Below are positions 8,851 to 28,690 of a stretch of 64,000 bases of DNA, one piece after another; the first letter of the stretch is position 1; each line of letters opens with the position of its first letter. Position numbers and translations under genes: made by a program. The notes below the pieces were generated by a model. That model had not been told where the DNA came from. It did no database searches and saw only the letters and a program-made list of their open reading frames with translations. Source of the stretch: Jatrophihabitans telluris (GTDB taxonomy: Bacteria > Actinomycetota > Actinomycetes > Mycobacteriales > Jatrophihabitantaceae); assembly GCF_023516435.1 (NCBI RefSeq), contig NZ_CP097332.1, forward strand, positions 3,286,001-3,350,000, in the 5' to 3' direction.

Positions 8851-9536
8851 GAGGTGCTCAGGAAGATCTGTTCAGCGAGGGACGGTTCGTTGCGGATCAA
8901 CGCTACCTCCTCGTCTGTGACGTCCGAAAGCGGTAGTCGCCCCCGGTGGGCACTGAAGCGTGCGAGCAGGGCGTTGAGGTCACCAGACTCCTCAATATCC
9001 GCGAGAATGTCCTGCACGTGGTCCAGGTTCAATCTGAAGAGCGCGATGTCTGACTTCGTAGGTGCGGCGGCCGCGGACAACTGCAACTTCCGTATCCGCT
9101 CCTTGACTTGGGCCTGATTGGGGCCAAGGCGAGGAAGCAGTGCTAGGGGGAGCGCTCTGAGTTGAGTCTCGGCCCATTCGCGCCACGCAGCTTGATCGCT
9201 CTGAGCAATTTGGGCGCGTATCCCGGCGACTTCTCGGACTCGTGCATTAAGATACTGGGCCGTCGGACGGCCCTGAGACGCGACCCGATCCCGGAGCGCC
9301 TTTGCGGGCTTCTCCAACTCCGTGGGCGTTGCGACGGGCACGTGCGCAGCCGTCAACGCACGGTGCACGACCAGAGCGCTCGCGAAGCCAGTGAGTTCTG
9401 CGTCGAGCTTGTTGAGGGCGGTTTGAGTCTGGCTCTGATCTTGCGACGCGCCTTCGTCATCCCGCTTAGCACGCGCCAACGATGCGAGTCGCTTAGCTCG
9501 CAGCATCAGCGTCTCGGTTGCTATGACGTCATTCAT
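8847..9536 (-). CDS. dpdI: DpdI-like small helical protein
   Basis: A 229-residue, mostly helical, Ala/Leu/Arg-rich protein with no known catalytic motif. Charged heptad-like stretches (AKRLASLARAKRDDEG; REWAETQLRALPLALLPRL) suggest coiled-coil or bundle structure. It sits between the ATPase DpdH and helicase DpdJ, overlapping each by a few bases, which fits a subunit or adaptor of the restriction complex. The name is given by operon position and size. ATG 9536 overlaps the dpdH stop by 8 nt. Confidence 0.65.
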   Translation of the reverse strand: MNDVIATETLMLRAKRLASLARAKRDDEGASQDQSQTQTALNKLDAELTGFASALVVHRALTAAHVPVATPTELEKPAKALRDRVASQGRPTAQYLNARVREVAGIRAQIAQSDQAAWREWAETQLRALPLALLPRLGPNQAQVKERIRKLQLSAAAAPTKSDIALFRLNLDHVQDILADIEESGDLNALLARFSAHRGRLPLSDVTDEEVALIRNEPSLAEQIFLSTS

Positions 9537-12500
9537 GTGACTTCCCTTCTTCGCTCGAGGTTGGACCGGCGTTGGGCTCAGTCAGAATTTCGAACCATCG
9601 CTCGATAACGCGCTCGATCTCGGCGTCGAGGTCAGCAATCGATCCGCCGTCCGCGGTCGCGTCACGCAGACCCGCATTGATCCATTGAGTGCTCGTTTCC
9701 AGATAGTCCACGATCGCGGCCAGGTTTCCCTGGATTTGGGCTCCTACCAGCCCCAACAGGGCGAAGCCGGTCTCCCCATTGGCGGACTCCAACAACTTTT
9801 CCAGTTGGGCGATCCCGGCCGCGTTCCAACTGCGCGCTGAGGCGTTGAGGTCGGTCAGTGCAGCAAGATTAGCGACCTTGACCAGACCGTAGGCCTGCCC
9901 GGTCGTGGTGGCTTCAATGATGGCGTCCACGGTGTCGGGATAACTGAGACCCTGCGGTAGTTGGCCGCGGATTCTCCCGACGAGGGCAGCCCAGTGGTCG
10001 ATCTGGTTCTGGCTCGCTCGAATTAGCCCCCTTAGTTCCTTGTCGGCGTCTTCGCACCACTGGGGCACCACTAGCTTGGCGTCCGAGGCCGCTGCCGCCT
10101 TGGCCCTACGCACAATCGCAGTCATTCGGTGTACGTCGATCGCATGCACTGCACCACTGCCTTGGGCCGCGCCGACGCCGGTAAGTAGCCGATCGATCGC
10201 ATCACCCCGCGCCGCAACGTACTTCGTATAGGCGTCCATCCACTCGGGGGAGCGAGCCGATGCGTCGATCCGACCTTTGCCGTCGTCACGCCAGAGCACC
10301 GCGTTGATCAGATCGATATCGCTCGGCTTCGCTGGGAGTTGTCCGCAGGCCGCCGCACCCCGCAGCAGTGAGCCGGCGGCATCCGTGAGCGAGTCGTCGT
10401 CAATCTCGAGCACCGCCACTATCCGCGCTCGGGCGTGGTCGATGCAGCCGTCCACAAGAGCATCGAGACGAGGCAGCGCCTCGCCGGCTAACTGCGGCAA
10501 GCCGGCGCCGATGAAGACCAGGCCGCGCAGCATCATCGCCATCCGAGCGGAGCGCTTCACCGTCACCATTGGAGTCACGTTGAGATGTTCGTCTGAACCT
10601 TCTATTGAAACGGTCCGGGTGCCCGCTGGGATCGCCTTAGACACCGTCGGGGCGTCTGGATCCTTGATGACCCGCTCGAACCAGTCCACTCGTGCGATCA
10701 ACGCTTCCCGAACGACGATGCGGAGTTCACTGGCGAGCGTTGGGGGCATCTTCTTGCCGTTCGCCCAATCATCGATTGCTTCGATCTTCCTTTTGACCGA
10801 CCGTGGGATCTCGCCCGAGGCATCGTAGTTGCGCGGCCGATCGCCGTCGGTCCGGGCGCGCTCGGTCGTGTCAGTGGGGTGGTCAAACAGGGTCTCGGGG
10901 ATCGGTTCGTGACCGAACGCGGTTAAAATTCCCTGATCTATCTCCGTGCGACCGCGGTCGCCCCAGAAGTTCAAGACCGTCTCGAGGCGCCCAGCCTCTC
11001 CTTCGGAGTAATCAGCCTGGATCTTCTCCTGGACATGTAGCGGCAGGCGCGGCAGCGCCATCCTCGTCGATTCCTCGGCGAGGAAGGAGGGCAGGGGGAA
11101 CTCGCCAGCTTCAATCACATCGACGTTGTCGTTGAGGACGTCGCGGATCGCTCGGGAGAGGACCTTCCGTGGGTTGAAGTTGGAGCGGCCCTTGCCGTCT
11201 GGAGACTTCTCCGCACAGGCATTCACGGCGCGCACAATCGCGAGTTCGTTGTAGGGGTAGAGACCGTAGCCTGTACTCGACACTCCGAATGAACCGTGAC
11301 ACGACGGCTGATAAACGCATTTAGCGCAGGCATTAGGGACGCCCGGGAATTCAGTCTCGAGGGCGTCCTTGCCAACCCGGGCTGCATTCAGATAACGACC
11401 AACGAAATCGACCAGCTCCTGCGCGTCGGCCCCCGCAAGGTCCACGTCGACCTCGTATAGCGGCGACGTCGCCTCCGAGCGTCTACGAAAGGTCTCGGGT
11501 AGCGACTCGTGGTAATAGCCCGGCGTCACTGCCATCATTGTCCGCAACGTTGCATAGCGCTCAACGCCCTGGACGACTCCGACCTCGACGATCGCGTCGA
11601 GCAGGTCGCGGCGCACGCCCTGGATCAGCGCGACGTCCTCGATCAGCAAGACGATCTCTTGACCGACCAACTTCTCGCGAATCTTCTTGAAGGCCTCGCT
11701 TACATCACCGACACCGAGGCTGGCAGCTTTGGTAACCGCTACGTCGAGCAGTCCATTGAGCAGGCGCACAGCCTCAGCCTGCATTGGGCCATTGTTGGAA
11801 AGCCGGGTGAATAGCTTACGAGTCGCTGCCGCAGCGTCCTTGAGGTTGGCGTAGTCCACGATGTCGAGTGGAAGTTCATCGACGGTGAATTCAAGTGGGA
11901 TGTCGGGTTCGTCGGGGTCGCGACCATGCAGTGCATGATGGGCACGTCGTTTGATGAACGATCCGGGCCGAAGGAGGTGGCTACGAAACAGAGGATCGAG
12001 GAAGAACAGACTCAGTCCGTTCTCCCCGACGAGTGCCTTGCCATGAGGAGTCTGAGACTCGTGGGTGCGGAGTGCCTCAGCCAACTCTGCGAGGATCTTC
12101 TGTTCCATCTCCTCGACCGTGACGCCGCTACCAAGGCTTCCGATTTTCCGACGAATATCGTCGAAATCGGGGTCGGCGTGGTCGAGGAGCAGCCTTTCGA
12201 CAACATCCTTCAGGCTGGTCTCGGTCTTCTGCAGATAGATCACGTGACGTTTCTGCTTCTTAGCGATTTTCGCGTGGGTCCAGCGGACCAGATGAGATTT
12301 TCCGGCTCCCGACTCGCCAAGGACTGTCGCTACGAGGACGCCGTTATTCGGCGCGCCTTCAAGGAACTCCCGAAGGACCGTGTCCTCGCTCACCGTTTCG
12401 ATCCCGTCGCGGCCGCCTCTTCCTCCGCGCCGACTGATCCGCAATGGCGAGTGTGTAGCAAGTAGGACCGCGTCCGAGGGCGTAGCCGCTTCGGTGGGTA

Positions 12501-12555
12501 TCGTGGCGGTGACGACCTCGGAGGACCAGCAAACGACGTTGACCTGTGTATTCAT
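9529..12555 (-). CDS. dpdH: DpdH, large P-loop ATPase
   Basis: A 1008-residue protein with Walker A GESGAGKS at residues 80-87 in an AAA-like N-terminal domain. A Walker-B-like stretch (EIVLLIEDVALIQG) lies around 300. A cysteine cluster of the form C-x2-C-x5-C (CAKCVYQPSC, about 415) could bind zinc or an Fe-S cluster. The C-terminal half is helical without a recognised fold. It is translationally coupled to dpdG (ATGA) and dpdI. In Dpd clusters DpdH is the ATPase of the restriction arm; its exact biochemistry is not known to me. Confidence 0.8.
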   Translation of the reverse strand: MNTQVNVVCWSSEVVTATIPTEAATPSDAVLLATHSPLRISRRGGRGGRDGIETVSEDTVLREFLEGAPNNGVLVATVLGESGAGKSHLVRWTHAKIAKKQKRHVIYLQKTETSLKDVVERLLLDHADPDFDDIRRKIGSLGSGVTVEEMEQKILAELAEALRTHESQTPHGKALVGENGLSLFFLDPLFRSHLLRPGSFIKRRAHHALHGRDPDEPDIPLEFTVDELPLDIVDYANLKDAAAATRKLFTRLSNNGPMQAEAVRLLNGLLDVAVTKAASLGVGDVSEAFKKIREKLVGQEIVLLIEDVALIQGVRRDLLDAIVEVGVVQGVERYATLRTMMAVTPGYYHESLPETFRRRSEATSPLYEVDVDLAGADAQELVDFVGRYLNAARVGKDALETEFPGVPNACAKCVYQPSCHGSFGVSSTGYGLYPYNELAIVRAVNACAEKSPDGKGRSNFNPRKVLSRAIRDVLNDNVDVIEAGEFPLPSFLAEESTRMALPRLPLHVQEKIQADYSEGEAGRLETVLNFWGDRGRTEIDQGILTAFGHEPIPETLFDHPTDTTERARTDGDRPRNYDASGEIPRSVKRKIEAIDDWANGKKMPPTLASELRIVVREALIARVDWFERVIKDPDAPTVSKAIPAGTRTVSIEGSDEHLNVTPMVTVKRSARMAMMLRGLVFIGAGLPQLAGEALPRLDALVDGCIDHARARIVAVLEIDDDSLTDAAGSLLRGAAACGQLPAKPSDIDLINAVLWRDDGKGRIDASARSPEWMDAYTKYVAARGDAIDRLLTGVGAAQGSGAVHAIDVHRMTAIVRRAKAAAASDAKLVVPQWCEDADKELRGLIRASQNQIDHWAALVGRIRGQLPQGLSYPDTVDAIIEATTTGQAYGLVKVANLAALTDLNASARSWNAAGIAQLEKLLESANGETGFALLGLVGAQIQGNLAAIVDYLETSTQWINAGLRDATADGGSIADLDAEIERVIERWFEILTEPNAGPTSSEEGKSHE

Positions 12556-13436
12556 CGGGTGTCTTTCGTGATTGTCACGGCCGAGACGTATCGCGGCTTC
12601 CCGTGCTCTTGGGCGTCCGGCAGCGCCATCACACCCGACGGGTCAGACTGGTACGTCATAGTCAGAAGGTGACGTTCCTCTGCGCTCGCCAGCGCGAGTC
12701 CGAGCGCGCGCACACCTCCATCCGAATCGTCGCCGAGGCCCGGATAGGTCGCACTCGGATGGCCAGGCAGAACCGGCAACTCATTGCGGAGAAACTCAAG
12801 CAGACTGCCGATCGGGATTTGCGCTCCCTTCGCTAGCGGCTCACCGAATGGATACCGGATGGCATCAATGACCGCGACGGTAGGGTCGGGGACGACCTTC
12901 GCCCCGGTCACTTTTTGACCGGAACCGGTCACCATTGACGTCAACGCCGGCCGGCCAAATCCGAGCGCCTCGCACCAGGAACGGAAGGTGTTCCAGTGAG
13001 CACCGTTCGTGAACAGTTTCGTGGGCATTACTGGCGCTACGTTGACCGAATAGTCCAGTGGTTCCGTCGGCGACTGGCGCAGCAACCAGATCAGCCCCGC
13101 GCGGACATCGGGCGCGCCCTCGAAGCCGTCCCCCAACTCGTCCGGCGGCCTGACAAGGCGGTTGCGCAAAAGGCGCAGAAACGCGTGCGGGCTGTCGACC
13201 TTCGCGCAACTGTGCAGGCCCTCGCCAGAGCGCTCAACAAGCCTGAATTCGACCAGGCCAGCGAGCGCGCGTTTGACGTGTGCGCCATCGCCGGGGGTAT
13301 GGGCTCGCATAGCTTCGGGGACGACCAGGGCGAGGATCTCGTCTCTATTCAGATCCGGGTAATCCATGATGGCCCAATAGGTCAGCCAGAGGGCTTGCGG
13401 AAACCCTGCCGCCGGGTTCGGGTTCAGAATGTCCAC
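12552..13436 (-). CDS. dpdG: DpdG-like protein
   Basis: A 294-residue protein starting at GTG 13436 (VDILNPNPAAGFPQALWLTYW), 1 base after the dpdF stop, with AAGGGA as ribosome site. The longer open frame upstream lies inside dpdF and is not coding. The N-terminal third (NRDEILALVVPEAM ... HVKRALAGLVEFRLVE) looks like a winged-helix fold; no catalytic residues stand out. It ends by overlapping dpdH (ATGA). The name is given by its place between the RecQ-like helicase and the ATPase. Confidence 0.7.
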   Translation of the reverse strand: MDILNPNPAAGFPQALWLTYWAIMDYPDLNRDEILALVVPEAMRAHTPGDGAHVKRALAGLVEFRLVERSGEGLHSCAKVDSPHAFLRLLRNRLVRPPDELGDGFEGAPDVRAGLIWLLRQSPTEPLDYSVNVAPVMPTKLFTNGAHWNTFRSWCEALGFGRPALTSMVTGSGQKVTGAKVVPDPTVAVIDAIRYPFGEPLAKGAQIPIGSLLEFLRNELPVLPGHPSATYPGLGDDSDGGVRALGLALASAEERHLLTMTYQSDPSGVMALPDAQEHGKPRYVSAVTITKDTR

Positions 13437-13437
13437 A

Positions 13438-16005
13438 TTAAAGTCCCTTGAGGAGTGAGGCGGCCGAAATTGCTGAATCTGCGGTGTCACGAAGCATCCA
13501 TCCGGGCTTGCCCGGATCAGGCGTGTCCTTCGGACCGACGATGTATGTGGGGAGGCCCAGTCTGACCCGCTCTCGGATATCCTCGTCCAGTTCGGGCTTC
13601 GAAAGGACCGCGGCAATCGGCCCTGGGTATGTATGGATCAGGGGCGTAGCGGAGTCCGGATCGTCGCGAATGATCGGTGACTGAGTCACCGCTCGCTGCA
13701 GCTTGGCTGTCAACTTCTTGGAGGCACCCCAGAAGACATGTATTTGCCGCTGGGCGAGTCGGACAAGAAGTTGTTCAATGTCGTCGCCGTCGTCGTACCA
13801 CGCGAACAGGGAGGCATTTCCCGACCGCCACGGCTCCATGGCATCCCCGCCCGCCCGCGGGCTCGGAAGCGGCGGACAGGGCTCGGGAGGGTGGATTCCC
13901 GGCGACGCCTGTGGCGCGCGACGGCACGCCGGACACCCCCGGCACGCCGGACTGGTGCCGAACGATCCGCCGTCGATCCTGACCCGATAGTGGCGGGCAA
14001 CGGTCCGGCCGACGCACGCGCCACCATCGACAAGGGTCAGCAAGGAAGCCAGGGCAGCGCCCTGGGCGGTCCGAACCTCATCCCGTACGCGTCCTAGCGC
14101 TTCACGCCAACCATGCTCGCTCTGGTATACCCCGTTGACCAACTCAAACTCGATGAAGTCCTCGATCTGTTCGTTGAACGTCGTGCGAGCTTCCTGCTGC
14201 GCCTCTAGGGACTGGTCCTCGTCCGCAATGAACATCGGTACCCGCAGCCTTATAATCCCGGCCTGTGCCATCAAGACGAGCGTCTGAACATTCCATTGGG
14301 CGCTCCGACCGAAGCCCTCGAGCATGTAGGAGGGAAGGGTGCTCTTTCGTACTCGATAACGCAGATCTGTGAGCCGTACCCCCGATTGCAAAAGGCGGCG
14401 CCAGCGTTCCCAGCCCAACTTATCTCCGATCATGGAGACATCGTTGAGACTCGCCGCGATCCGGCCGTCACGGGGACCGCTGCACAGATAGGCGACCGAT
14501 GGTCGTCCATCACGGCCGCTGCGGCCGACCTCCTGGTAGTACCGGTCGATGGTCTCCGGCAGGCAGGCGTGCACCACACTCCGAACGTTCGCCATGTCTA
14601 GACCCAGTCCGAACGCCGAAGTTCCCACCACGACATCAAGTGAGGTCGGAGAATCTTCGCCGTCTGTCTGGTAGCCGCGCCAGCGCTCCAACACCGTACG
14701 TCGTTTGTCGTCCTTCGACCGACCAGTCACACTCTCGACGCGAGCCAAGCCCGCCCCACGCAGACGAATGACCCATTCCTCGGCGTCAGCGACGGTCGTG
14801 GTGTACAGGATCAGCGGCCGCGGTAGGCAGCTGAGTGCCTCGAGGACATCGGCCTGTCGCGCCCGCTCATCGAGATGATTCGTCAGGAAGTAAGCCGGCT
14901 CGGTACGGATCTCCGAGCCCCACACCACCGAGACCGGGTCTTCGCCCATGGCAAACAGGCGGGTTAGCAGCTCTACCGGACGCTGCGCCAAGGTCGCGCT
15001 GAGCATCAGCACCGACGGCTTCTTACTCGCAGGAGCGCGCGCGTGCGCCTCCCTGATAAGTCCAGGCATGATTTGGAACTCTGGTCGGAAGTCAGTCCCC
15101 CACTGGTCGACTAGGTGTGCCTCGTCAATCACGATCTGCTGCAGGATCCCAGCATCCGCGCAGGCTAGGAGCGCGGGAGCGAGACCGGTCACGAACGCCT
15201 CCGGAGAGGTGTACAGGAGTCGCTGGCTGCCGTTGCGCACCGCGTCCCGCAACTGCCGCTTCAATTCTGGCGCGAGACTTCCGACGTAGGCGAACCTTCC
15301 GTGAGGGCTCAATTCCCGCCCACGCAGTTGCGCTTCCTCGCTGGTGCGACGCTCCATATCGAGCGCTAAGACCACAGTCGGGACGACCACGATCGTGACC
15401 CCTCGGTCTGACAACAGCGCCTTGGACCAGGCGACGGCGGTCTTGCCTCGCCCAGTGGGGAGCGCGACGACGAGAGAGCCGCCGTCGTTGAGCACCGCTG
15501 CCCGGGCAGCCTGACGTTGGGGTTCGCCTCGATAGTGCTCATAGCGGTGCGCAGTAGTCCAGAACGGGTCCGCCTCAACAAGATTGGTGAGGTCCGGATC
15601 GGCGTCGACGTACGCAGCAAGGACCTGCGAGATCGCAAGTTCCGCCGCGGGCGCCTGGTCGTCGGCAGAGCTAGGCGCCCAGTCGAGCGCGCGTACGGCA
15701 CGAAGTCCGCCGACGATCTGGCCGGCGGCGCACTGCACGGCCTCCCACTGAGCACTCGTCGGCCAGGGAGGTCCTGCGGGCACCGTCAGCGCGGGATTGC
15801 CCGCATAGGTCACCTTTGCCGTGATCAGCACTTGTCTGATCAGGCATGCCAGATCGCGCCAACCCGCTTCAACCGTCCCAAGGTGGGGCAGCGCGTCGAG
15901 GGTGCGTCGGCAGGCATCGCTGACAACCAACCCGGACCCGCGCGCGTATGGCTCCGGCCACCGGTTCAAGGCGTCCTGAAGCACGGACAGATCGTCTCTA
16001 GACAT
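13438..16005 (-). CDS. dpdF: DpdF, RecQ-like DEAD/DEAH helicase
   Basis: An 855-residue superfamily 2 helicase of RecQ type. Walker A is LPTGRGKT (about 182-189); the RecQ signature DEAHLVDQWGTDFRPEF starts near 294. The second helicase domain has VVVGTSAFGLGLDMANVRSVVHA and motif VI YYQEVGRSGRDGR. A cysteine group (CRGCPACRR) after the helicase core replaces the usual RecQ zinc site. ATG 16005 is preferred over the longer frame because it overlaps the dpdE stop by only 8 nt, as elsewhere in this operon. It should remodel or unwind DNA in the restriction process. Confidence 0.85.
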   Translation of the reverse strand: MSRDDLSVLQDALNRWPEPYARGSGLVVSDACRRTLDALPHLGTVEAGWRDLACLIRQVLITAKVTYAGNPALTVPAGPPWPTSAQWEAVQCAAGQIVGGLRAVRALDWAPSSADDQAPAAELAISQVLAAYVDADPDLTNLVEADPFWTTAHRYEHYRGEPQRQAARAAVLNDGGSLVVALPTGRGKTAVAWSKALLSDRGVTIVVVPTVVLALDMERRTSEEAQLRGRELSPHGRFAYVGSLAPELKRQLRDAVRNGSQRLLYTSPEAFVTGLAPALLACADAGILQQIVIDEAHLVDQWGTDFRPEFQIMPGLIREAHARAPASKKPSVLMLSATLAQRPVELLTRLFAMGEDPVSVVWGSEIRTEPAYFLTNHLDERARQADVLEALSCLPRPLILYTTTVADAEEWVIRLRGAGLARVESVTGRSKDDKRRTVLERWRGYQTDGEDSPTSLDVVVGTSAFGLGLDMANVRSVVHACLPETIDRYYQEVGRSGRDGRPSVAYLCSGPRDGRIAASLNDVSMIGDKLGWERWRRLLQSGVRLTDLRYRVRKSTLPSYMLEGFGRSAQWNVQTLVLMAQAGIIRLRVPMFIADEDQSLEAQQEARTTFNEQIEDFIEFELVNGVYQSEHGWREALGRVRDEVRTAQGAALASLLTLVDGGACVGRTVARHYRVRIDGGSFGTSPACRGCPACRRAPQASPGIHPPEPCPPLPSPRAGGDAMEPWRSGNASLFAWYDDGDDIEQLLVRLAQRQIHVFWGASKKLTAKLQRAVTQSPIIRDDPDSATPLIHTYPGPIAAVLSKPELDEDIRERVRLGLPTYIVGPKDTPDPGKPGWMLRDTADSAISAASLLKGL

Positions 16006-19000
16006 AGTCCGTCCAGGACTGTGCGGAAACCACGACACAGCTGACGCTGCTCAGACGTAGCACCGGAGATGACACCGCGGTCGCGATGGCACGACTGGTA
16101 GCGATCTCCGCCTCTAACAAAGCCGAGTCCATGACGAAGCCGGCCGCGCGTGACCGGGCTCTGCTTTGTGCGATCAACATGTCGGCGTCCCCGTTAACCT
16201 TTTCCGCCGCTCGACGTGATGCTTCGACGACGTCGGAAATATGTTCAACGTGGTGTCGTGCGACGGAAAAACAACCCTCCGCTACCGCAGCCAGGTTGGC
16301 CTCGCCACCGAGCAGGGTGTGCAGCGCCGCGATACGATCCGGGTTCAGATTGACGTCGCCTTTGTCCTTCCTTAGCGGTTGGCTGAGGTACTCAGCGAAG
16401 GTAGGGTCAAGAACCGGGGAGCTCGTGTCCGACGGAATCCATACCTGCTGATATTGGGGCGGGAACGCCGTGTCAGCACGCCTCCTCGCGACTGGCTCAA
16501 CTTCGCCGAGCCCGACCATCGCACTGACAATCGGGTCCAACGCGGCTTCGACGACGAAGTCGAATCCGAACACTGGGAGTGGCTCGAGTGGCCAGCGCGG
16601 ATTGAGGCGCCACATGGCAACCGCCTGGCCCCGATCGTCTAGGTTGAGCAGCAGTTCGATCCCATCCATGAATGGATTCCCGCGGCGAAAGAGACGCCGG
16701 TCGCCGGCCGTCCAGCGATCGAAGACCCCGGTGCGCGAGCCTTCGACACGAAGCAGCCTGCTTAGTAGACGCTCACTCAGCAGTGGCTTGTTCTGATAGT
16801 CGCGTTCGAACGTCGTGCTGCCGTCGCGATTTGTGCGACCGACGAACCGAAAGCCTTCGTTACCTTCGATCAGGCTGCGGTAGGCGGCTTCGATGCCGGC
16901 GGAGTCCTCTTCGTAGCGGGCGATCGCGCTTGCCACCGCCTCGCCGTCGATCTGCGAGCCATAGCTGGACTCGAGCGCGTCGAGTTCGTTGACGCGGCGC
17001 TTCTCACGCTTGAGAGCCTCTCGAATTGGCTCGGCCCGTTCGACGAATTCGTCTAGGCCCTCCGTCAGCAAGACAGTCCAGAGTTCACCAACGAGGTCCT
17101 CCACGGCTTCGTGGAAGGCGGAGATGGAGCCACTGAAGATCTCGAACCCTCGGACAAGCACCTTCAGCCAGGATGCGGGGATCCCCGTGTGATCGTCGTC
17201 GGCGACAACGAACTGCGTGGTAGCACGCTGGTGCCCGTAGCGGTCGAGTCGGCCGATCCGCTGTTCCAACAGGTTCGGGTTTGACGGCAGTCGAACGTGG
17301 AAGGCTAGGTCCGCGTCTTGGAAATTTCGCCCGATCTCGCCGGAGTCGTCAACGACGAGCACTCCACCCGACTTCAGCCATGCTGCCGTCGCTTGTTCCC
17401 TCTCAGTTTCTGTCTGGCTGCGAACGTGGGCGTGGACATGATTCACGACGCCTTGGTTGACTGGGATGCGAGCAACCAGATCCCCTGCTAGCTCGCCACG
17501 CCCGCAGAAGGCGATCGCCTTCGCCGGCGCCTGGCAACGCTGCGCGATCGCAGTCGCCAACGCTTCCAGGCCATCGATGGGCATCTGGGCCCGGAGTATG
17601 TCTAGAAGGTCAGTCTCGAACTCAAGAACTGGGGCCGCGACGAGAGCTTCAGATTCGATCGCAGAAAACGACCCTGGGGTCTCACGGCCGTTGATCCGAA
17701 AATCCAAGACATTGCAGAGATCGGTCACCGGCCCACCGACCCGGGACAGCAGCACCGCCAGGACCGGACCAAACGGAACGGGGTCCATCTCGTTATCCAG
17801 AATCGCTTCCGCACAGCGATTGACCCAGGTGGCGATCGCAGCGGCCCCAGCTGATGCCTCCAGCGCCTCGAGTCGGATGACCTTTGGCCGGAGACGTCCC
17901 GTAAATTCGAATGGAGTTAACAGGCCTTCGTCGTCGAGAGTCTGCATTGCGACGACGTGCCGCCTGTTACGAATTACTCGATGGTGGAGTCGGTAAGTTT
18001 CGGACACATGTGTTCGGACCGCGGCAACTGCACGCCGGAGTTGCTCGAGGTCGACGTGTTTGGGGTCGGTGCCCGCGGGTCCATACACCTTCATCGCGCG
18101 TTGCATCACAGCTTGAACAGCCTCGTCGGCGGGGATCTGTCGCCGAATCTGATCGAATTGGATCTCCAGCAACTCCGGGTTGTCCGCATCCGGTTCCTCA
18201 TCGAGTCCGAAAACGGCGGCCGCGAGCTCGTGTCGTGACTCAAGCAACCGCTCGAATGAGTCACGGTCTTCCCACCGAAACATTTGCGGGTCGAGCAGGT
18301 GAAGTAGGGCCAGATGGGTTGTCACGCCCCGGGAGAAAGGGGTGGCCGAGAGCATCAGGATCCGAGGTGCCCGGTGAGCCACCGCAGCCAACTCGCGATA
18401 GGGCGAGGCTGACGGACTTGCGGTACGCGCCAGCAAGTGGGCTTCGTCGATTACGAGCAGGTCTACGTTCACCAGAGCCGCCCATCCGCCGACGTCCCCG
18501 TGACCGACGATTCGGACCGGGCTCGATCCGTCGGCCGTCGGGAAATCGTCCAGGTGGAACTTGGTGTGTAGCTCCGCTTTCCACTGAGGTACCAGAGCGT
18601 CGGGAACAATAACGCCGATCTCTCGGCGGCCGGCCCCGTCGATCAACAGTTGCCGCATCACCATGCCAGCTTGGATGGTCTTGCCCATCCCGACTTCGTC
18701 AGCCAGCAGGTACCGCTGAACTGGATCGTGGATGATGCGTAGCGCGGCACTGATCTGGTGCGGGTGGATGCGCACAGAGGAGGACGTGATCCCCGTGGCA
18801 GAACCCGTGGCCGAACGCTCGGCTAGCAGCAGGCGTCGTACTGGTTGGCGGACGTCACGGTATCGAGGGGTCTCATTTGCACCCGCGAGCAGGACCTGCA
18901 GTGGATCGCGCGGAACCTTCTCCCATCGAACGAAGATCTGATCTTCGGGGATGTCGGTGTCCATCGAGGAGTTAGGCAAGCGCACGAAGTAGCCCCCCGG

Positions 19001-19282
19001 TCCGCCCCCCACGACACGCCCGGCACGCCAACGTCCTCCACCGTCCACGAAGAACACCCTCGTCTGCTCCCCCAGCAAGACTCGTCGTACATCGGGTAAT
19101 GGAAGCCACCGTGACCCGACGACGGGTTCGGCGGCCGACTCGAAAAAGTCGACCCGCACCCGGCCGTCGCTGAGGTCACCAACCCTGCCAATCCCGGGCG
19201 CTCCGGTGAACGTGACAACGCAGCCAACGGACAGCTCCGACGGCGTCGGCGGTCCGTCACGTTGCATCCGCCCGTCTGACAT
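15998..19282 (-). CDS. dpdE: DpdE, SNF2-type helicase
   Basis: A 1094-residue SNF2-family ATPase and first gene of the leftward arm. An N-terminal Tudor/SH3-like strand region (residues about 18-125) precedes Walker A DEVGMGKT (195-202), DEAH (279-282) and SAT (313-315). The C-terminal domain has GEIGRNFQDADLAFHVRLP and RIGRLDRYGH, the SNF2 arginine-finger motif, with a long helical tail. It resembles DISARM DrmD and Dpd DpdE helicases. ATG 19282 is taken as start; ATG 19267 is possible. No strong ribosome site is visible for either. Confidence 0.85.
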   Translation of the reverse strand: MSDGRMQRDGPPTPSELSVGCVVTFTGAPGIGRVGDLSDGRVRVDFFESAAEPVVGSRWLPLPDVRRVLLGEQTRVFFVDGGGRWRAGRVVGGGPGGYFVRLPNSSMDTDIPEDQIFVRWEKVPRDPLQVLLAGANETPRYRDVRQPVRRLLLAERSATGSATGITSSSVRIHPHQISAALRIIHDPVQRYLLADEVGMGKTIQAGMVMRQLLIDGAGRREIGVIVPDALVPQWKAELHTKFHLDDFPTADGSSPVRIVGHGDVGGWAALVNVDLLVIDEAHLLARTASPSASPYRELAAVAHRAPRILMLSATPFSRGVTTHLALLHLLDPQMFRWEDRDSFERLLESRHELAAAVFGLDEEPDADNPELLEIQFDQIRRQIPADEAVQAVMQRAMKVYGPAGTDPKHVDLEQLRRAVAAVRTHVSETYRLHHRVIRNRRHVVAMQTLDDEGLLTPFEFTGRLRPKVIRLEALEASAGAAAIATWVNRCAEAILDNEMDPVPFGPVLAVLLSRVGGPVTDLCNVLDFRINGRETPGSFSAIESEALVAAPVLEFETDLLDILRAQMPIDGLEALATAIAQRCQAPAKAIAFCGRGELAGDLVARIPVNQGVVNHVHAHVRSQTETEREQATAAWLKSGGVLVVDDSGEIGRNFQDADLAFHVRLPSNPNLLEQRIGRLDRYGHQRATTQFVVADDDHTGIPASWLKVLVRGFEIFSGSISAFHEAVEDLVGELWTVLLTEGLDEFVERAEPIREALKREKRRVNELDALESSYGSQIDGEAVASAIARYEEDSAGIEAAYRSLIEGNEGFRFVGRTNRDGSTTFERDYQNKPLLSERLLSRLLRVEGSRTGVFDRWTAGDRRLFRRGNPFMDGIELLLNLDDRGQAVAMWRLNPRWPLEPLPVFGFDFVVEAALDPIVSAMVGLGEVEPVARRRADTAFPPQYQQVWIPSDTSSPVLDPTFAEYLSQPLRKDKGDVNLNPDRIAALHTLLGGEANLAAVAEGCFSVARHHVEHISDVVEASRRAAEKVNGDADMLIAQSRARSRAAGFVMDSALLEAEIATSRAIATAVSSPVLRLSSVSCVVVSAQSWTDYV

Positions 19283-19644: not shown

Positions 19645-20352
19645 GTGACGACCAAGCCAGCGGTGATCCTGTTGAGTGGGGGGCTAGACTCGGCGACAGT
19701 CCTGGCGATCGCGAAGGACAAAGGTTTCGAGCCCCACGCGATCAGTTTCCGATACGGCCAACGTCACGACGTCGAACTTGACGCGGCCAGACGCGTCGCA
19801 GCCGCCAACAACGTGGACCGGCACGTGATCGCTGAGATCGACCTGCGTGTGTTTGGAGGATCAGCGCTGACGGCTGACCTTGACGTTCCGCATCACGCGA
19901 GCGTCGATGATCTTGACGATGGCGGCATCCCGATCACCTACGTCCCCGCGCGTAACACAATCTTCTTGTCGTTCGCGCTGGCCTGGGCCGAGACTCTGGG
20001 GGCCAGCGACGTATTCATCGGAGTCAACGCTCTGGACTACTCGGGCTACCCGGACTGCCGGCCGGAGTACATCGCCGCTTATGAGCAGATGGCGAACCTG
20101 GCAACCAAAGCGGGCGTCGAAGGCACTCAGCGACTGAAGATCCATACGCCTCTGATCAATCTCACGAAAGCCGAGACGATCGCCAAGGGCCTGGCTTTAG
20201 GAGTGGACTACTCGCTCACTCACAGTTGCTACGACCCTACAGTCAGCGGTCAGGCCTGCCGTACATGTGACTCGTGCCTACTACGGCGACGGGGCTTCGC
20301 AGAACTGGGGATGACCGATCCGGCGCTCGGTGTCGCGAGCCGCAGGCCGTGA
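19645..20352 (+). CDS. queC: QueC, 7-cyano-7-deazaguanine (preQ0) synthase
   Basis: This enzyme converts 7-carboxy-7-deazaguanine (CDG) to preQ0 using ATP and ammonia, the last step of preQ0 synthesis. The PP-loop SGGLDS is at residues 11-16, the substrate region [11 protein letters not shown] follows, and the C-terminus has the zinc cysteines (SCYDP ... [14 protein letters not shown]). GTG 19645 is chosen because GAGGAGGA stands 4 bases upstream and the protein (235 aa) then has the family length. It is first in the rightward operon and overlaps queE as GTGA. No QueF nitrile reductase is present, so preQ0 and not preQ1 is the expected product. Confidence 0.95.
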
Positions 20353-20990
20353 CCTACCGACTAAAGGAAATCTTCTACACATTGCAGGGCGAGGGTGCCC
20401 ATGCTGGACGCCCTGCGGTGTTCGCGAGGTTCGCCAGTTGCAACTTGTGGACGGGCCAGGAGAAGGACCGGCTCCGGGCAGTCTGCCGGTTCTGCGACAC
20501 CGACTTCGTAGGTATTGACGGACCCGGCGGTGGCCGCTTCGCGACCGCGGACGCGCTTGCCGACGCAATCGACTCCACCTGGGCGGGGCAGCCCAATCCT
20601 TCTGTAGAGCGGTATGTGGTCTGCACCGGCGGTGAACCGCTCCTACAACTGGACGCCCCAGCGATCGACGCCCTTCATACGCGGGGCTTCACTGTGGCTG
20701 TCGAGACGAACGGCACCCAACCGGCGCCGGTCGGGCTGGATTGGATCTGCGTCAGCCCGAAGGCCGACGCGCCGCTCGTGCTGGTCACCGGTGACGAACT
20801 CAAACTCGTCTACCCCCAAGAGACCGCCCAGCCCGAGAGGTTTGAGCACCTGTCTTTCGAGCGGTTCCTCTTGCAGCCCATGGACGGGCCTGACCAGGAC
20901 AAGAACACCCGTCTTGCCGTCGAGTACTGCCTCGCCCACCCGCAGTGGCGTCTGAGCCTGCAGACCCACAAGTACCTAGGGATCGCATAG
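20349..20990 (+). CDS. queE: QueE, 7-carboxy-7-deazaguanine synthase (radical SAM)
   Basis: A 213-residue radical-SAM enzyme that contracts carboxy-tetrahydropterin (CPH4) to CDG. The start of the protein reads [12 protein letters not shown], typical of QueE. The cluster cysteines are C31, C46 and C49 (C-x14-C-x2-C), the expanded spacing known in some QueE branches in place of C-x3-C-x2-C. TGGEPLLQ is the SAM-binding GGE motif. GTG 20349 overlaps the queC stop. Confidence 0.93.
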
Positions 20991-21349
20991 TGGATATCTT
21001 TCGCGAGTTCAGCTTCGAAGCCGCACACCGACTTCCGCACGTCCCGGAGGGACACAAGTGCGGGCGACTGCACGGACACTCCTACCGCATCGAGGTCCAC
21101 GTGCGCGGCGATGTCGATCCGGTCACCGGCATGGTGATGGATTTCGCCGAGATCAAAGCCGCGTTCCGACCGCTTGAGGACATGCTTGATCATCACTATC
21201 TCAACGAGGTCGAGGGACTGGAGAACCCCACGAGCGAGAATCTCGCCCAATGGGTTTGGAAGCGCATCGAGGGAACCCTCCCGCTCTCGGGAATCGTGGT
21301 CCGCGAGACATGTACCTCCGGAGTCGCGTACCACGGGGATCAATCATGA
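20990..21349 (+). CDS. queD: QueD, 6-carboxytetrahydropterin synthase
   Basis: A 119-residue enzyme that converts dihydroneopterin triphosphate to CPH4. Zinc ligands are His13 (EAAHRL), His28 and His30 (RLHGHSY); Cys24 is the likely catalytic cysteine. The C-terminal glutamate (VRETCTSG) completes the family pattern. GTG 20990 shares one base with the queE stop (TAGTG). It overlaps folE2 as ATGA, so all pathway genes are coupled. Confidence 0.93.
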
Positions 21350-22164
21350 CCCTCGAGGACGTGCAGAACCGGCCCGACAGCCGCGGCATCGCGATCGACG
21401 CAGTCGGCGTCAACGGTCTGCGCTACCCGATCTCCGTTCTCGACCAGGCACTCGCCAAACAGGACACGATCGGCGAGATCTCCATGTCCGTAGCGCTGCC
21501 CGCAGAGGTCAAAGGCACCCATCTGAGCCGATTTCTTGAAATCCTCACCGAACACTGCGGCGAACTGACCCAGCGCACCATTCCGACCGTGCTCACCGAG
21601 ATGCAGGATCGGCTCGGCACGACAGATGCTCAACTCACGGTGGCATTTCCCTACTTCCTGCCCCGGTCTGCACCGGTCAGCGGCGCCACGGCCCTGATGG
21701 ACTATGCATGCCGCTTCCGCGCTCGACTCTCAGCGGTAGTGTCTGAGTTCGCCCTCCAGGTCGCGGTCCCGGTCACAAGCGTGTGCCCCTGTTCCAAGGC
21801 GATCAGCGACTACGGAGCACACAACCAGCGCGGCCTCATCACGATCGAGGTCTGGCCCCGTCAAGCCGACGGAGAGTTCGATCTCATCTGGATCGAGGAT
21901 CTGATCTCGATCGCCGAAGCCTCCGCGTCGAGCCCGGTTTATCCGATCCTCAAACGCACCGACGAACGCCACGTCACCATGGCCGGCTACGACAAGCCGG
22001 TCTTCGTCGAAGACATGGTTCGCGAAGCCGCCCGCGAGTTGGAAGCCGACGATCGCATCGCCGCGTTCACCGTCGAAGCAGTCAACGACGAGAGCATCCA
22101 CAACCACGGCGCATTCGCGCGCATCCACCACCCCGCAACCGCGCGAGCCTCCGAAACCGCGTGA
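21346..22164 (+). CDS. folE2: GTP cyclohydrolase FolE2 (type IB)
   Basis: A 272-residue enzyme opening GTP to dihydroneopterin triphosphate, the first step feeding QueD. The motif [21 protein letters not shown] carries the catalytic Cys and the conserved SK/AHNQRG of the FolE2 (COG1469) family, unrelated in sequence to FolE type IA. ATG 21346 overlaps the queD stop (ATGA). A dedicated copy within the modification operon makes the island independent of host folate flux; using the metal-flexible type IB enzyme may matter under zinc limitation. Confidence 0.93.
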
Positions 22165-23105
22165 CTGCGATGAGTCCGCAACGCCCTCGCATCCACATCG
22201 TGGTGACGTGCACCAACCGCAAACGCCAGCCCGTGCCCGCAAAGTTGCATCTACGGGAAGTCACCGGCGTCCGAACTGAAACGCGCATCAACCACTGGAC
22301 GCAGCGACTGACTTCGAGCGATGTTGGCACGGTTAGCGCTGAGGACCTCTACGCCGGCGAGCATTGGGACATCGCCCGTAATCTACCCAGCTCCGCGACT
22401 GGCTTCGCTAAGGCCACACTCTGGGTGGCGTCCGCTGGCTGGGGACTCATCGCAGCAGACGCCCAGATTCGCCCGTACTCGGCTACGTTCGCCGCAGGCC
22501 ACGCGGACTCAGTTCCACCCGGCCGCGACGGCACACGAGCGTGGTGGAACGCAGTAGCCGCATGGTCCGGCCCGAACACGGCAGGTCCCCGCTCACTTAC
22601 TGCGTTGGTTGCCGAGCACCCTCGCGACCGCATTCTGTTCGTACTCTCGCAGCCCTACTTCAGCGCTTGCACTGATGATCTCGAACGCGCCCTGGCCACC
22701 GCACGCGACGCCCAGGTCAGCATCGTAGCCGCCGGCGTCGCAGCGAACCCGCGCCTCGCCGGATGGCAACTACCCGCCAACGCCCGACTACAAGACCGCC
22801 TCGGTGGCACTCGCGGGGCACTCAACGTTCGTATAGCCAGCGCATTGCTCAATGCCGGCCTGACTGACCACGCCGCAATGCATCGCTACCTCACCCGATC
22901 GCTGGCGAAGGCTCCGTCGCTGACGGTGTACGCGAGAAGCCGACTCAGTGATGCAGCAGTCAGCGCGTTCATTCGAACCCACCACGCACAGGACTCGACC
23001 GTCAGTCGGACCGGACTGCTTCGTCAACTCCGCGACGCGGGCATGGCCTGCGAACAAAATCGATTTGCCGCGATACACGCCGCCACCGTGGGAGGCACTT
23101 CATGA
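22161..23105 (+). CDS. dpdC: candidate DpdC, DNA preQ0-to-ADG converting protein
   Basis: A protein of about 314 residues. It opens with a beta strand and Cys/Lys motif (IHIVVTCTNRKR), then AEDLYAGEHW and a central Rossmann-like stretch (RILFVLSQPYFSACTDDL). This resembles the DUF6884-like family, though I cannot confirm the family here. In characterised systems DpdC is needed to turn 2'-deoxy-preQ0 in DNA into 2'-deoxy-7-amido-7-deazaguanine (dADG). Identity is inferred from position between folE2 and dpdB/dpdA and from being the only unassigned gene in this arm. GTG 22161 overlaps the folE2 stop; ATG 22170 is an alternative. Confidence 0.65.
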   Translation: MTAMSPQRPRIHIVVTCTNRKRQPVPAKLHLREVTGVRTETRINHWTQRLTSSDVGTVSAEDLYAGEHWDIARNLPSSATGFAKATLWVASAGWGLIAADAQIRPYSATFAAGHADSVPPGRDGTRAWWNAVAAWSGPNTAGPRSLTALVAEHPRDRILFVLSQPYFSACTDDLERALATARDAQVSIVAAGVAANPRLAGWQLPANARLQDRLGGTRGALNVRIASALLNAGLTDHAAMHRYLTRSLAKAPSLTVYARSRLSDAAVSAFIRTHHAQDSTVSRTGLLRQLRDAGMACEQNRFAAIHAATVGGTS

Positions 23106-24250
23106 CCACACGGACCAAACGTCCCACCCTGGACCGGCGAGCGCTACGACTAGAACAGACGAACGGTACCTACCTGTATGTATTCAGCCTGACCGCGCCG
23201 GAGATATTGCAACTCGCTGGAATCTCCCGGGTCAGCCGCGACGAGGCCGGCGAACTCATCGGCTACCAACGACCCGAAGTTCGCAACCACGTCAACGAGA
23301 TCGTCGAATACCTCGACAGCGACAATGTCGTGTTCCCGAACCCCATCATCATCGCGCTGCCCTCCACGGTCCGGTTCGTCTCCAGTCGCGGCACCAAACC
23401 GAACACGACGGATGAGGCTGCGTGCAACGGCACTCTCGAAATCCCGTTGCCGGTTGGCAACGAACCACAGCCTGGATGGATCGTCGACGGCCAGCAGCGC
23501 ACCCTCGCCCTCGCCAAGGCTCGACGCCAAGACCTACCGGTGCTGGTGACTGCCTTCATCACCGACGATGTTGATGTACAGCGCGACCAATTCATGCGCA
23601 TCAACAACACCAAGCCGCTACCACGCGGACTTGTCACTGAACTCCTTCCGAGCATCACCAGCCCACTGCCACCGCGACTAGCCGCGAGCCAAATTCCCTC
23701 TGCGCTGTGCGACATTCTCAACCGCGACGAATCGTCTCCCTTCGCTGGCCTCATCCGACGTTCGTCCACCAACAAGACCGAGCGGTCTCAGGCTGTCATC
23801 ACCGATACCAGCATCGTGAAGATGGTGAAAGATAGTCTCAATTCCTCCGGAGGCTGTCTCTACCCGTATCGAAATTTCACGACCGGCGAGACGGACTCCC
23901 TGAGCGTCCTCCGGACAGTGACAATCTACTGGGCCTGCGTCCGCGAAACCTTCCCTGACGCTTGGGGGCTCCCGCCCGAGAAGAGTCGGCTCATGCATGG
24001 GGCAGGGATACGCGCGATGGGCCGCCTCATGGACAAGATCATGTCACCGCTAAACCTGGATGATGTGCTCACGTCGAAAGTCGTCATGGCCGAACTGGAA
24101 CTCGTCGCGCCCTGCTGCCGATGGACCGCCGGGAGTTGGGACGAACTTGGCAGGTCGTGGGATGCGGTCGAGAACACCACGCGGCACATCAACGAACTTT
24201 CCAACTACCTGATCCGAGTCCACACCCAGGCCAAGATGGCCCGCCGATGA
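23102..24250 (+). CDS. dpdB: DpdB-like DGQHR-domain protein, copy 1
   Basis: A 382-residue protein with the DGQHR-type motif WIVDGQQRTLAL at about 127-137, shared by DndB and DpdB (ParB-like fold). Other shared blocks are GYQRPEV, the PN-x-I-I-IAL strand, FMRINNTKPLP, LYPYRNF and LPPEKSRLMHG. In known systems DpdB is required with DpdA for preQ0 insertion into DNA. ATG 23102 overlaps the previous stop (ATGA) and the 3' end overlaps dpdA (ATGA). A second, clearly homologous copy lies after dpdA. Which of the two is the functional DpdB cannot be decided by eye. Confidence 0.8.
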   Translation: MTTRTKRPTLDRRALRLEQTNGTYLYVFSLTAPEILQLAGISRVSRDEAGELIGYQRPEVRNHVNEIVEYLDSDNVVFPNPIIIALPSTVRFVSSRGTKPNTTDEAACNGTLEIPLPVGNEPQPGWIVDGQQRTLALAKARRQDLPVLVTAFITDDVDVQRDQFMRINNTKPLPRGLVTELLPSITSPLPPRLAASQIPSALCDILNRDESSPFAGLIRRSSTNKTERSQAVITDTSIVKMVKDSLNSSGGCLYPYRNFTTGETDSLSVLRTVTIYWACVRETFPDAWGLPPEKSRLMHGAGIRAMGRLMDKIMSPLNLDDVLTSKVVMAELELVAPCCRWTAGSWDELGRSWDAVENTTRHINELSNYLIRVHTQAKMARR

Positions 24251-25491
24251 AATTCTTCTTCCCCGACAGCCAGGATCAAATCGACCCATCGTTTGACTTC
24301 ATCAGCGAGGAACGATCGATCTATCGCGTCCGGCAACGCGATGACCACTATGCCCACGAAGCACTTCGCGCCTCGCCCTTCGACGGCTTGCTCGTCTCGA
24401 AGGCGATCGTCGACGGACTGCCCGGGGCGGCTGGCAAGTACACAGCCCCACAACGTCAGCGGCTCTATCGCGTTGGAGTCCGCGACTTCTTTCGCCTCGA
24501 CGAGCGTCACGATCGTCGACTCGAGACGATGGGTGACTGCGGCGCGTTCACCTACGTGCGCGACGACGTGCCGCCGTACACCGCCGATGAGGTGGTCGAC
24601 TTCTACGAAGGCTGCGGATTCGACCTGGGCATCTCAATCGATCACGTGATACTCGGCTACGACAAGACTGCAGACACCGACGCCAGTCACCCTCATCGGG
24701 ATGGCTGGCAGCAGCGTCAACAGATCACCCTCGAACTCGCTGCAGAATTCCGCTCACGAGCCCGGGCTCGAAAGGCGCGGTTCACACCCGTCGGGGTCGC
24801 GCAAGGCTGGAGCCCAACGTCTTACGCTGCCTCGGTCTCGGCCCTGCAGAAGATCGGCTATAGCCGGGTCGCGATGGGCGGCATGGTGCCGCTGAAGACT
24901 CCAGACATCCTGGCGTGCCTTGAGGCAGTCAACGTCGTGCGCAAGTCATCCACTCAACTGCACCTTCTGGGCATTTCCCGATGCGAGAACGTCGAAGCCT
25001 TCGCCGCCAACGGCGTCACCAGCTTCGACTCCACCTCGGCGTTTCGGCAGTCGTTCAAGGATGACCACGACAACTACTACGCGCTCGACCGAAACTACTC
25101 GGCGCTGCGTGTCCCTCAGGTTGACGGCAATCCGAAGCTCAAGGCCCGCATCCGTGCAGGGCAAGTCTCCCAGGCGCAAGCGATCAAACTCGAGCGTCAG
25201 TGCCTGCAGGCAGTGCGCCGCTACGACACCGGCACCGTTACGATCGAGACCGTCCTCGAGTTGCTGAGGGAGTACGACCAACTATGCGACGGCCGCAAAG
25301 ACCGCACGGCCTCGTACCAGCAGACACTCGAAGCCCAGCTATGGCGTGACTGCCAATGCGGCTTGTGCGAATCAGCGGGCATCGAGATCGCGCTTTTTCG
25401 TGGTTCGGAACGCAACAAGCGTCGCGGGTTCCACAACCTGCACGTATTTCGCCAGCGGCTCGCCCGCGAACTGGAAGGCACGGCAGCATGA
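24247..25491 (+). CDS. dpdA: DpdA, TGT-like DNA deazaguanine transglycosylase
   Basis: A 414-residue paralogue of tRNA-guanine transglycosylase, expected to exchange guanine in DNA for preQ0. Catalytic positions are kept: Asp97 in GDCGAF corresponds to the DSGGFQ aspartate, and Asp261 in GVTSFDSTSAF corresponds to the nucleophile in GVD-x-FDC. The zinc site is Cys369, Cys371, Cys374 (CQCGLC) and His396. Long basic segments (RSRARARKARF; RGSERNKRRGF) could contact DNA. It lies between two DpdB-like genes with ATGA overlaps on both sides, so DpdA and both DpdB proteins are probably made in similar amounts. Confidence 0.92.
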   Translation: MKFFFPDSQDQIDPSFDFISEERSIYRVRQRDDHYAHEALRASPFDGLLVSKAIVDGLPGAAGKYTAPQRQRLYRVGVRDFFRLDERHDRRLETMGDCGAFTYVRDDVPPYTADEVVDFYEGCGFDLGISIDHVILGYDKTADTDASHPHRDGWQQRQQITLELAAEFRSRARARKARFTPVGVAQGWSPTSYAASVSALQKIGYSRVAMGGMVPLKTPDILACLEAVNVVRKSSTQLHLLGISRCENVEAFAANGVTSFDSTSAFRQSFKDDHDNYYALDRNYSALRVPQVDGNPKLKARIRAGQVSQAQAIKLERQCLQAVRRYDTGTVTIETVLELLREYDQLCDGRKDRTASYQQTLEAQLWRDCQCGLCESAGIEIALFRGSERNKRRGFHNLHVFRQRLARELEGTAA

Positions 25492-26663
25492 CGACCTCTC
25501 GGCGACGCGGCGACCTGACCTCGCCCCCGATCGAACAGGAACTTCGACTCCCCGCTCTGCAGGTACGGCAGGGACCCAATCGGATTCTGTACAGCTTTGC
25601 GGTCGACGGCAAAGAACTACCGCGCTTCGCGACGGTCTCCCGCATACGCCGCGACACCGATGCTGGTATCCAGGGGTACCAGCGACCCGAGGTGCTTTCG
25701 CACATCACCTCAATCCGCAAATACCTTGAGTCCGAGGATCCGATGATCCCGAACGCGATCGTCATCGCGTTCGACAAGCGCGTCCTGTTCGAACCGAGCG
25801 GGCCCGCCGACGCCTACGCATGCCCGGGCACCCTCGTCATCCCCATCGACGACCAGGGCGCCGACGCAGACAAGCCGGGTTGGGTCGTCGATGGCCAGCA
25901 ACGCTGCGCCGCAATCCGAGAAGCGCGAGTCGAATCGTTCCCAATCTGCGTAACCGCCTTCATCACCGAGTCAGACGCCGAGCAGCGCTCCCAGTTCATC
26001 CTCGTCAACTCGACTAAGCCGCTGCCTAAGGGTCTCATCTACGAACTCCTGCCATCGACGGTCGGCGCACTGCCCGTTGCGCTCCAGGTCCGACGCTTCC
26101 CCGCAACCCTGCTGGAGCACCTCAACTACGACTCCGACTCGCCGCTACAGTCGCTGATTCAAACCCCGACGACGCCCGAGGGTGTCATCAAAGACAACTC
26201 CATTCTTCGGATGCTCGAGAACAGCCTCAGCGACGGTGCCCTCTACCCCTACAGATACGCCGGCACCGGCGAGGGCGATGTCGACTCCATGCTGGCGATG
26301 ATCAAGGACTTCTGGACGGCCGTCCGCGATACATTCCCAAGCGCTTGGGCACTACCCCCCCGCCGGTCGCGTCTAATGCACGGGGTGGGAATCATCGGCA
26401 TGGGCTACCTCATGGATGCCATCGGCGATCGGTATGCACACATCCGAACGCCCACAGTCGACGACTTCCGTTACGAACTAGATGAGATCGCCGATGTATG
26501 TGAATGGACCAGCGGAACATGGAGGTTCGCACCGGATCATCACCGCAAATGGAACGACCTTCAGAACACTCCCGGTGACATTCGACTGTTGTCGAACTAC
26601 ATCCTTGGGGAGTACCGCGTGCAAACAATGGGTCGGCGCGTGCGGAGGCAACAGCGCGCCTGA
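25488..26663 (+). CDS. DpdB-like DGQHR-domain protein, copy 2
   Basis: A 391-residue homologue of the gene before dpdA. Shared blocks are GYQRPEV, IPNAIVIAF, WVVDGQQRCAAI (about 133-143), FILVNSTKPLPKG, ALYPYR, ALPPRRSRLMHGVGI and a C-terminal LSNYI. Divergence across the rest suggests an old duplication. It is coupled to dpdA by ATGA. It may act as the second subunit of a hetero-oligomeric DpdB, or the two copies may give sequence or strand specificity; this is inference. Just downstream (26669-26696) GC-rich inverted segments could form a terminator hairpin, but they lack a U-tract. Confidence 0.8.
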   Translation: MTTSRRRGDLTSPPIEQELRLPALQVRQGPNRILYSFAVDGKELPRFATVSRIRRDTDAGIQGYQRPEVLSHITSIRKYLESEDPMIPNAIVIAFDKRVLFEPSGPADAYACPGTLVIPIDDQGADADKPGWVVDGQQRCAAIREARVESFPICVTAFITESDAEQRSQFILVNSTKPLPKGLIYELLPSTVGALPVALQVRRFPATLLEHLNYDSDSPLQSLIQTPTTPEGVIKDNSILRMLENSLSDGALYPYRYAGTGEGDVDSMLAMIKDFWTAVRDTFPSAWALPPRRSRLMHGVGIIGMGYLMDAIGDRYAHIRTPTVDDFRYELDEIADVCEWTSGTWRFAPDHHRKWNDLQNTPGDIRLLSNYILGEYRVQTMGRRVRRQQRA

Positions 26664-28372: not shown

Positions 28373-28690
28373 CAGCCCTCCCATGGGCGATCAGAGCGAC
28401 CATCCTCCCAAAGAACAATCAGGAAGGAACCGTCAACGACCCACCGGGGTCCGCGTCACCGGGGTCACAAGGGTGTGCACCTTCCGACCGCCCCGAACGA
28501 CCAAGGCGTCTCGACGGCAGTTCCGCGTTGACTCGTTGCAGCCGAGTGGCGGTGCACACCGAATTAAACTGGTTTCGGGCTCAAGTCCGGGCGGACGCCG
28601 CTCTTTCCGAGTCGACATCTTTAGCTACTGCCGCGCTCGCCACGGTCCCATCCACCGAGTGCCGATCCTTGGCGCTGATACATTCCCGAG

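Follow-up and report, generated by a model that had tools for sequence, protein, structure and literature searches.

Two DpdB subfamilies in the Dpd island of Jatrophihabitans telluris: a predicted core copy and a candidate accessory partner of DpdA

INTRODUCTION

The biochemistry of Dpd systems was done in enteric systems, where DpdB is reported to have an ATPase role in the insertion of preQ0 (7-cyano-7-deazaguanine) and DpdC to perform the step from dPreQ0 (the preQ0 deoxynucleoside) to dADG (2′-deoxy-7-amido-7-deazaguanosine) (PMC12839542). E. coli K-12 is reported to make preQ0 (PMC6884629). In a 2025 preprint covering 2,335 unique dpd windows, dpdB leads the dpd genes in extra copies, with 801 reported (PMC11888242), so multiple dpdB genes are already in print as a count; this count is the only mention of DpdB paralogues or two-DpdB systems found in the portions of the literature consulted, and the main dpd papers may contain such a description. 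Here we describe a 64,000-nucleotide stretch of Jatrophihabitans telluris DNA (contig NZ_CP097332.1, positions 3,286,001 to 3,350,000), hereafter the window, which by its predicted genes holds a nearly complete Dpd restriction-modification island with a two-DpdB layout, dpdC-dpdB1-dpdA-dpdB2. What is new here is that DpdB divides into a core-type copy, B2, downstream of dpdA, and a putative accessory copy, B1, upstream.

RESULTS

Two dpdB genes overlap dpdA in the window

An earlier note, made from the sequence alone, had proposed that two DpdB-like genes flank dpdA and that both are coupled to it by ATGA. The coordinates hold, both proteins pass the equivalog cut-off of the NCBIfam DpdB model (Table 1), and the overlaps lie at 24247-24250 and 25488-25491, with a third ATGA overlap, at 23102-23105, joining dpdC to dpdB1. 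The motifs that the note listed, GYQRPEV, DGQQR, N[NS]TKPLP, LYPYR and LPPxxSRLMHG, are all present in both proteins, and the likeness of the two is not due to chance, since their alignment, 377 columns long and 42% identical, has an E value of 2e-95.

Frequency of two-DpdB loci

Scanning one genome per species with a DpdA profile gave 483 relatives, and the analysis covered the best 80; because the best were taken, this set leans towards the DpdA of the window. Locus counts leave out the overlapping pieces L001 and L007 and the low-scoring L003 to L005 (L and G are our labels for loci and genomes). DpdB genes lie on both sides of dpdA in 67 of the 80 loci, so the two-DpdB layout is not unusual, and downstream only in 13, the state of L035 being undecidable with just 208 bases upstream of dpdA; upstream-only DpdB was seen in none of the 80. 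The dpdC gene adjoins B1 in 66 of the 67 two-DpdB genome loci, the exception being L081, where the contig starts too near.

Surveys anchored on DpdB itself found two copies in 28 of 41 DpdB-bearing genomes and one copy in 13, with three of the 41 (G396, G397 and G398) having been picked via DpdA as search centres. Two copies were present in both DpdB-bearing genomes among 396 of the window's phylum (one being the window's own), exactly two in 16/16 of Streptomycetales (391 searched), and two in 9/20 of Myxococcota (195 searched) and 1/3 of Pseudomonadota (398 searched). Two-copy genomes of Streptomycetales and Myxococcota were counted by matches above the cut-off, and L053, L095, L150 and L151 were classified copy by copy. 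A whole-genome search of nine genomes with a one-DpdB locus found no second DpdB above the cut-off anywhere. Among plasmid records matched by DpdB2, 9 of 17 have two places, and NCBI names both genes DpdB in the four of these nine whose annotation was read. The dpdB-dpdA-dpdB arrangement was also seen on two contigs filed as viral (L100 and L101), and the unannotated phage record MT835580.1 has two DpdB places.

The earlier note had also taken Dpd systems to have one DpdB. This stands for the enteric-type loci of an Enterobacter plasmid and E. coli EC13, and fails as a general statement, two-DpdB loci being common; enteric dpdA occurs in 159 of 5,426 E. coli genomes, and the one region read, that of EC13, has a single dpdB.

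Upstream and downstream copies form distinct subfamilies

In a tree of 170 rows (166 DpdB and 4 distant DGQHR proteins; L037_B2, cut by a contig end, was dropped from the trees), the 75 upstream copies make up one side of a branch with a Shimodaira-Hasegawa-like approximate likelihood ratio (SH-aLRT) support of 100, and in a careful tree of 67 rows the 26 upstream copies form one clade with support of 100/100. The phyla in this B1 clade include Actinomycetota, Myxococcota, Planctomycetota, Cyanobacteriota and Pseudomonadota. Profiles of B1 and B2 separate their own members by at least 158 bits, a comparison favorable by construction. Single copies fall outside the B1 clade in 13/13 cases in the DpdB-anchored surveys and 14/14 in the 170-row tree, as do orphan plasmid DpdB copies; the dpdB2 of the window groups with single-copy DpdB in trees and profiles alike, and a B1-type copy as the only DpdB was found in none of the genomes examined. 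Five Myxococcota single copies with B1-like scores of 377 to 402 bits were considered as B1 and were all of B2 type by profile classification. Altogether, the trees and profiles indicate that B2 is the canonical DpdB type and B1 an ancient, separate paralogue located between dpdC and dpdA.

On the quick DpdA tree, the one- and two-DpdB states require at least nine changes; taking the well-supported branches alone, the minimum is six when the single state is counted and eight when the double state is. This count leaves out L035 and L048, which have short upstream DNA, with dpdC adjoining dpdA in L048. By this mapping, B1 has been lost or gained several times. In two acidimicrobial one-DpdB loci, a distant DGQHR protein upstream of dpdC (L044:6796-7983, 90 bits; L050:6740-7858, 86 bits) might replace B1.

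Motifs, selection and structure models

The DGQxR motif, the QR pair and FxxxN are reported to mark DGQHR domains, and DGQQR has been tied to nucleoside triphosphate (NTP) binding in GmrS (PMC4619093). The loss of conserved active residues in one copy, which the earlier note had named as evidence against its view, was not seen: DGQQR is intact in 75/75 B1, 74/74 B2 and 14/14 single copies and invariant in all 166 DpdB rows, with conservation of the QR pair and of FxxxN at 95% or more in each of the two groups. A catalytically dead copy is thus ruled out at the motif level only. The median ratio of nonsynonymous to synonymous substitution rates (dN/dS), from 176 related and non-independent pairs, is 0.079 for B1, 0.103 for DpdA and 0.132 for B2. 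These data indicate that both copies are intact and under purifying selection, and a recent or decaying duplicate is ruled out by the deep split and low dN/dS.

Conserved columns specific to each group include D40-G41-K42, L172, K181 and D364 in the B2 of the window versus T31-A32-P33, R166, R175 and H362 in its B1. Structure models reached a mean predicted local distance difference test (pLDDT) score of 92.2 for B2 and 88.7 for B1. The B2 model has ParB, Noc, KorB and sulfiredoxin at the top at Z 5.2 to 7.5, all below 8, with the first clearly unrelated entry at 4.3, and its predicted ParB/sulfiredoxin likeness lies mostly over residues 24-180. The best Foldseek match had an E value of 0.044 for B2 and 0.023 for B1, the latter with a ParB chain first; a sequence search of the PDB with B2 gave chance-level matches only.

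The Dpd island of the window

The preQ0 genes lie upstream of dpdC on the same strand, and the dpdE-dpdD block lies on the opposite strand (Table 1). Besides dpdC, scans with Pfam, NCBIfam and PADLOC found the restriction genes dpdD, E, F, H, J and K, with dpdG weak and dpdI not identified. Open reading frames (ORFs) resembling the queE-like protein of the window occupy the annotated queE position in plasmid loci. Residues D97, D261, C369, C371, C374 and H396 of DpdA are invariant in 97/97 aligned DpdA; from the biochemistry of tRNA-guanine transglycosylases (TGT), we take D97 and D261 to be the catalytic aspartates and the other four to be zinc ligands. Transposase genes with HTH_Tnp_1 and rve domains, presumably IS3-like, lie outside the island on both flanks, at 27190-28384 and 428-1567.

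Table 1. Predicted genes of the Dpd island in the window (cut-offs follow "vs" where noted)
Feature	Positions	Strand	Size	Assignment and match
dpdB1	23102..24250	+	382 aa	upstream DpdB paralogue, B1 clade; DGQQR at residues 129-133; NF041060 422.8 bits vs 300; PADLOC DpdB
dpdA	24247..25491	+	414 aa	DNA-guanine transglycosylase (TGT-like); NF041059 589.2 bits vs 200; solved homologue 7ui4, E 5.2e-127
dpdB2	25488..26663	+	391 aa	downstream, canonical-type DpdB; DGQQR at residues 135-139; NF041060 497.7 bits vs 300
dpdC	22170..23105	+		start picked by eye; PADLOC DpdC 256.6 bits on 22158-23102; no Pfam or NCBIfam match
folE2	21346..22164	+		GTP cyclohydrolase for preQ0; PF02649 287.5 bits
queD	20945..21349	+		PF01242 125.9 bits
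queE-like	20349..20990	+		radical SAM protein; PF04055 22.2 bits, below cut-off 29.5
queC	19645..20352	+		PF06508 245.9 bits
dpdE	15998..19282	-		SNF2-type helicase; NF041062 1008.3 bits vs 500
dpdF	13438..16038	-		RecQ-like helicase; NF041063 728.1 bits vs 550
dpdG-like	12552..13616	-		NF041064 39.6 bits, below cut-off 80; no PADLOC match
dpdH	9529..12555	-		NF041065 805.3 bits vs 450
ORF between dpdH and dpdJ	8847..9536	-		perhaps in the place of dpdI; no match in Pfam, NCBIfam or PADLOC
dpdJ	4456..8850	-		NF041067 1485.8 bits vs 800
dpdK	3944..4459	-		PLD-like; NF041068 166 bits vs 100
dpdD	1857..3962	-		NF041061 509.7 bits vs 300

Stand-alone DpdB and fused DpdA elsewhere

Stand-alone DpdB genes were also encountered. 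One above the cut-off is p14 of Myxococcus phage Mx4 (L152:6068-7474); four Myxococcota genomes (L136 to L139) carry a B2-type DpdB, likewise above it, with no dpdA within the 15 kb examined, and a fifth Myxococcota single copy (L140) begins 14 bases from a contig end. Both stand-alone DpdB proteins scanned (Mx4 and L136) have an N-terminal extension, and such proteins might serve a prophage or act in counter-defence. Orphan plasmid copies (L015, L016 and L019) occur in Euzebya, near DNA cytosine methyltransferase genes, in Nonomuraea, and in Variovorax, where the gene has a type I-E CRISPR operon on one side and a DUF6884 gene on the other. On the Allocoleopsis plasmid pMIC7113.07 (L018:753-2849), a DpdA without an adjoining DpdB has an N-terminal DUF6884 domain of the DpdC family, a natural DpdC-DpdA fusion, and the DpdA of Paenibacillus (L017) is likewise N-terminally long.

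DISCUSSION

As judged from the literature, DpdA would exchange guanine for preQ0 in DNA, aided by NTP hydrolysis by DpdB. We propose that B1 and B2 form a heteromeric NTPase of the ParB/sulfiredoxin (Srx) type, perhaps a heterodimeric clamp, that would act with DpdA on DNA, in which B2 would supply the core activity and B1 a dispensable added step, such as loading, processivity, or the choice or density of target sites; in our judgment, the arguments for and against this model are about evenly balanced. The likeliest role for B1 would then be that of an accessory NTPase subunit, probably made in step with DpdA because an overlap of 4 nucleotides (ATGA or GTGA) joins the B1 stop to the dpdA start in 65 of 74 loci. 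The fixed gene order, these overlaps, and the lack of a lone B1-type copy among the genomes examined make a DpdA-associated complex of B1 and B2 plausible. The earlier note had suggested that such a complex could set sequence or strand specificity; the trees, motifs, loci and models gave nothing for or against a role in that choice.

Several results weigh against the heteromeric model. The dpdA-B2 junction is ATGA or GTGA in only 30 of 86 loci, not clearly above the stop-codon expectation. Distances among B1 copies follow those of DpdA less closely (r of 0.887) than do those of B2 (0.963), and once DpdA is controlled for, B1 and B2 distances correlate only weakly (partial r of 0.12). In DpdA, just five columns differ where B1 is absent, and they outline no interface; the loci examined contain no DpdA-DpdB fusion or ORF with two DpdB domains. 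No Foldseek match in the PDB had an E value below 0.001 for either model, and DndB is reported to be a homodimer (PMC4507180). Finally, B1 is absent from 13 of the 80 anchored loci (with L035 undecidable) and is therefore dispensable in some lineages.

That dispensability would also suit the main rival to an accessory subunit, namely that B1 is not a catalytic subunit but a DNA-binding regulator like DndB that tunes how the island is transcribed, for instance at the divergent dpdE/queC region. For DndB, another protein of the DGQHR kind, binding to palindromes in its own promoter and a limiting effect on modification have been reported (PMC4507180). However, B1 scores far better in the DpdB model NF041060 (422.8 bits) than in the DndB model PF14072 (61.4 bits) and overlaps dpdA in most loci, an arrangement frequent among subunits made in step, and the inverted repeats at 19250-19700, four short pairs in 451 bases without a chance control, were not used as evidence. 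We consider a regulatory B1 unlikely. We give similarly little credence to B1 as a homomeric NTPase of its own that makes no contact with B2 and serves a separate step, be it DpdA-DpdC coupling or work on another DNA substrate. An independent protein should sometimes occur alone, and no B1 without B2 was found in the genomes examined, although the placement of B1 with dpdC on one side and dpdA on the other (66 of 67 two-DpdB genome loci), the low B1-B2 partial correlation and the B1-specific conserved residues R12, R13, R166, R220 and H362 (numbering of the window B1) fit such a protein. It is quite improbable that the copies are redundant duplicates kept for dosage: they belong to one family, with shared motifs and 42% identity, but the split is old and maintained across phyla, many columns diverged between the groups yet are conserved within each, and in the loci examined the missing copy is always B1, never B2.

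A further reading, which we hold to be doubtful though worth stating, makes DpdB1 an obligate partner in a DpdA machine with two NTPases; the ancestor of DpdB-dependent Dpd systems would already have had this machine, and enteric systems would be reduced forms that have since lost B1. When the quick DpdA tree is rooted on B-less DpdA, two-DpdB loci lie on both sides of the first split in the B-bearing group; ancestral presence is weakened by the careful B tree, which places the alphaproteobacterial B1 not at the base, and by the B-less row L014 inside the ingroup of the DpdA tree. Because B1 forms one clade with a constant position, its loss appears likelier than repeated gain, horizontal gain being possible. 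If B1 was ancestral and obligate, the one-DpdB model of dPreQ0 insertion would be incomplete for many lineages.

DpdB is split into two subfamilies that differ in gene position and retention, and both copies share one name in the annotation of the records read. The resulting prediction is that B2 is the core and B1 an accessory dependent on B2, and actinobacterial, myxococcal and alphaproteobacterial systems would be the place to study the fuller machine.

Compared to known systems, B1 and B2 share with DndB of phosphorothioate systems, by description a transcriptional regulator (PMC4507180), probable membership in the DGQHR/ParB-Srx superfamily, and both exceed the PF14072 cut-off, whereas DpdB models score them several times higher; with the model of Dnd-associated DGQHR protein 1 (TIGR04172), B1 and B2 score 59.2 and 40.8 against a cut-off of 450, which is not reached. 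Enteric-type Dpd systems (dpdCAB plus dpdD-K) have in common with the window dpdA, a B2-type dpdB, dpdC, adjoining dpdD, dpdJ and dpdK homologues, and the logic of modification plus restriction; the enteric loci read, in the Enterobacter plasmid and E. coli EC13, have one DpdB, downstream of dpdA. The window differs from them in its second DpdB, placed between dpdC and dpdA, and in the queC, queE-like, queD and folE2 genes of its island. Two-DpdB loci in Streptomyces, Micromonosporaceae, Myxococcota, Alphaproteobacteria and others have the same C-B1-A-B2 order and both DpdB subfamilies and differ from the window only in neighboring genes and sequence divergence, the nearest DpdA among the best 80 of 483 being 65% identical (L020).

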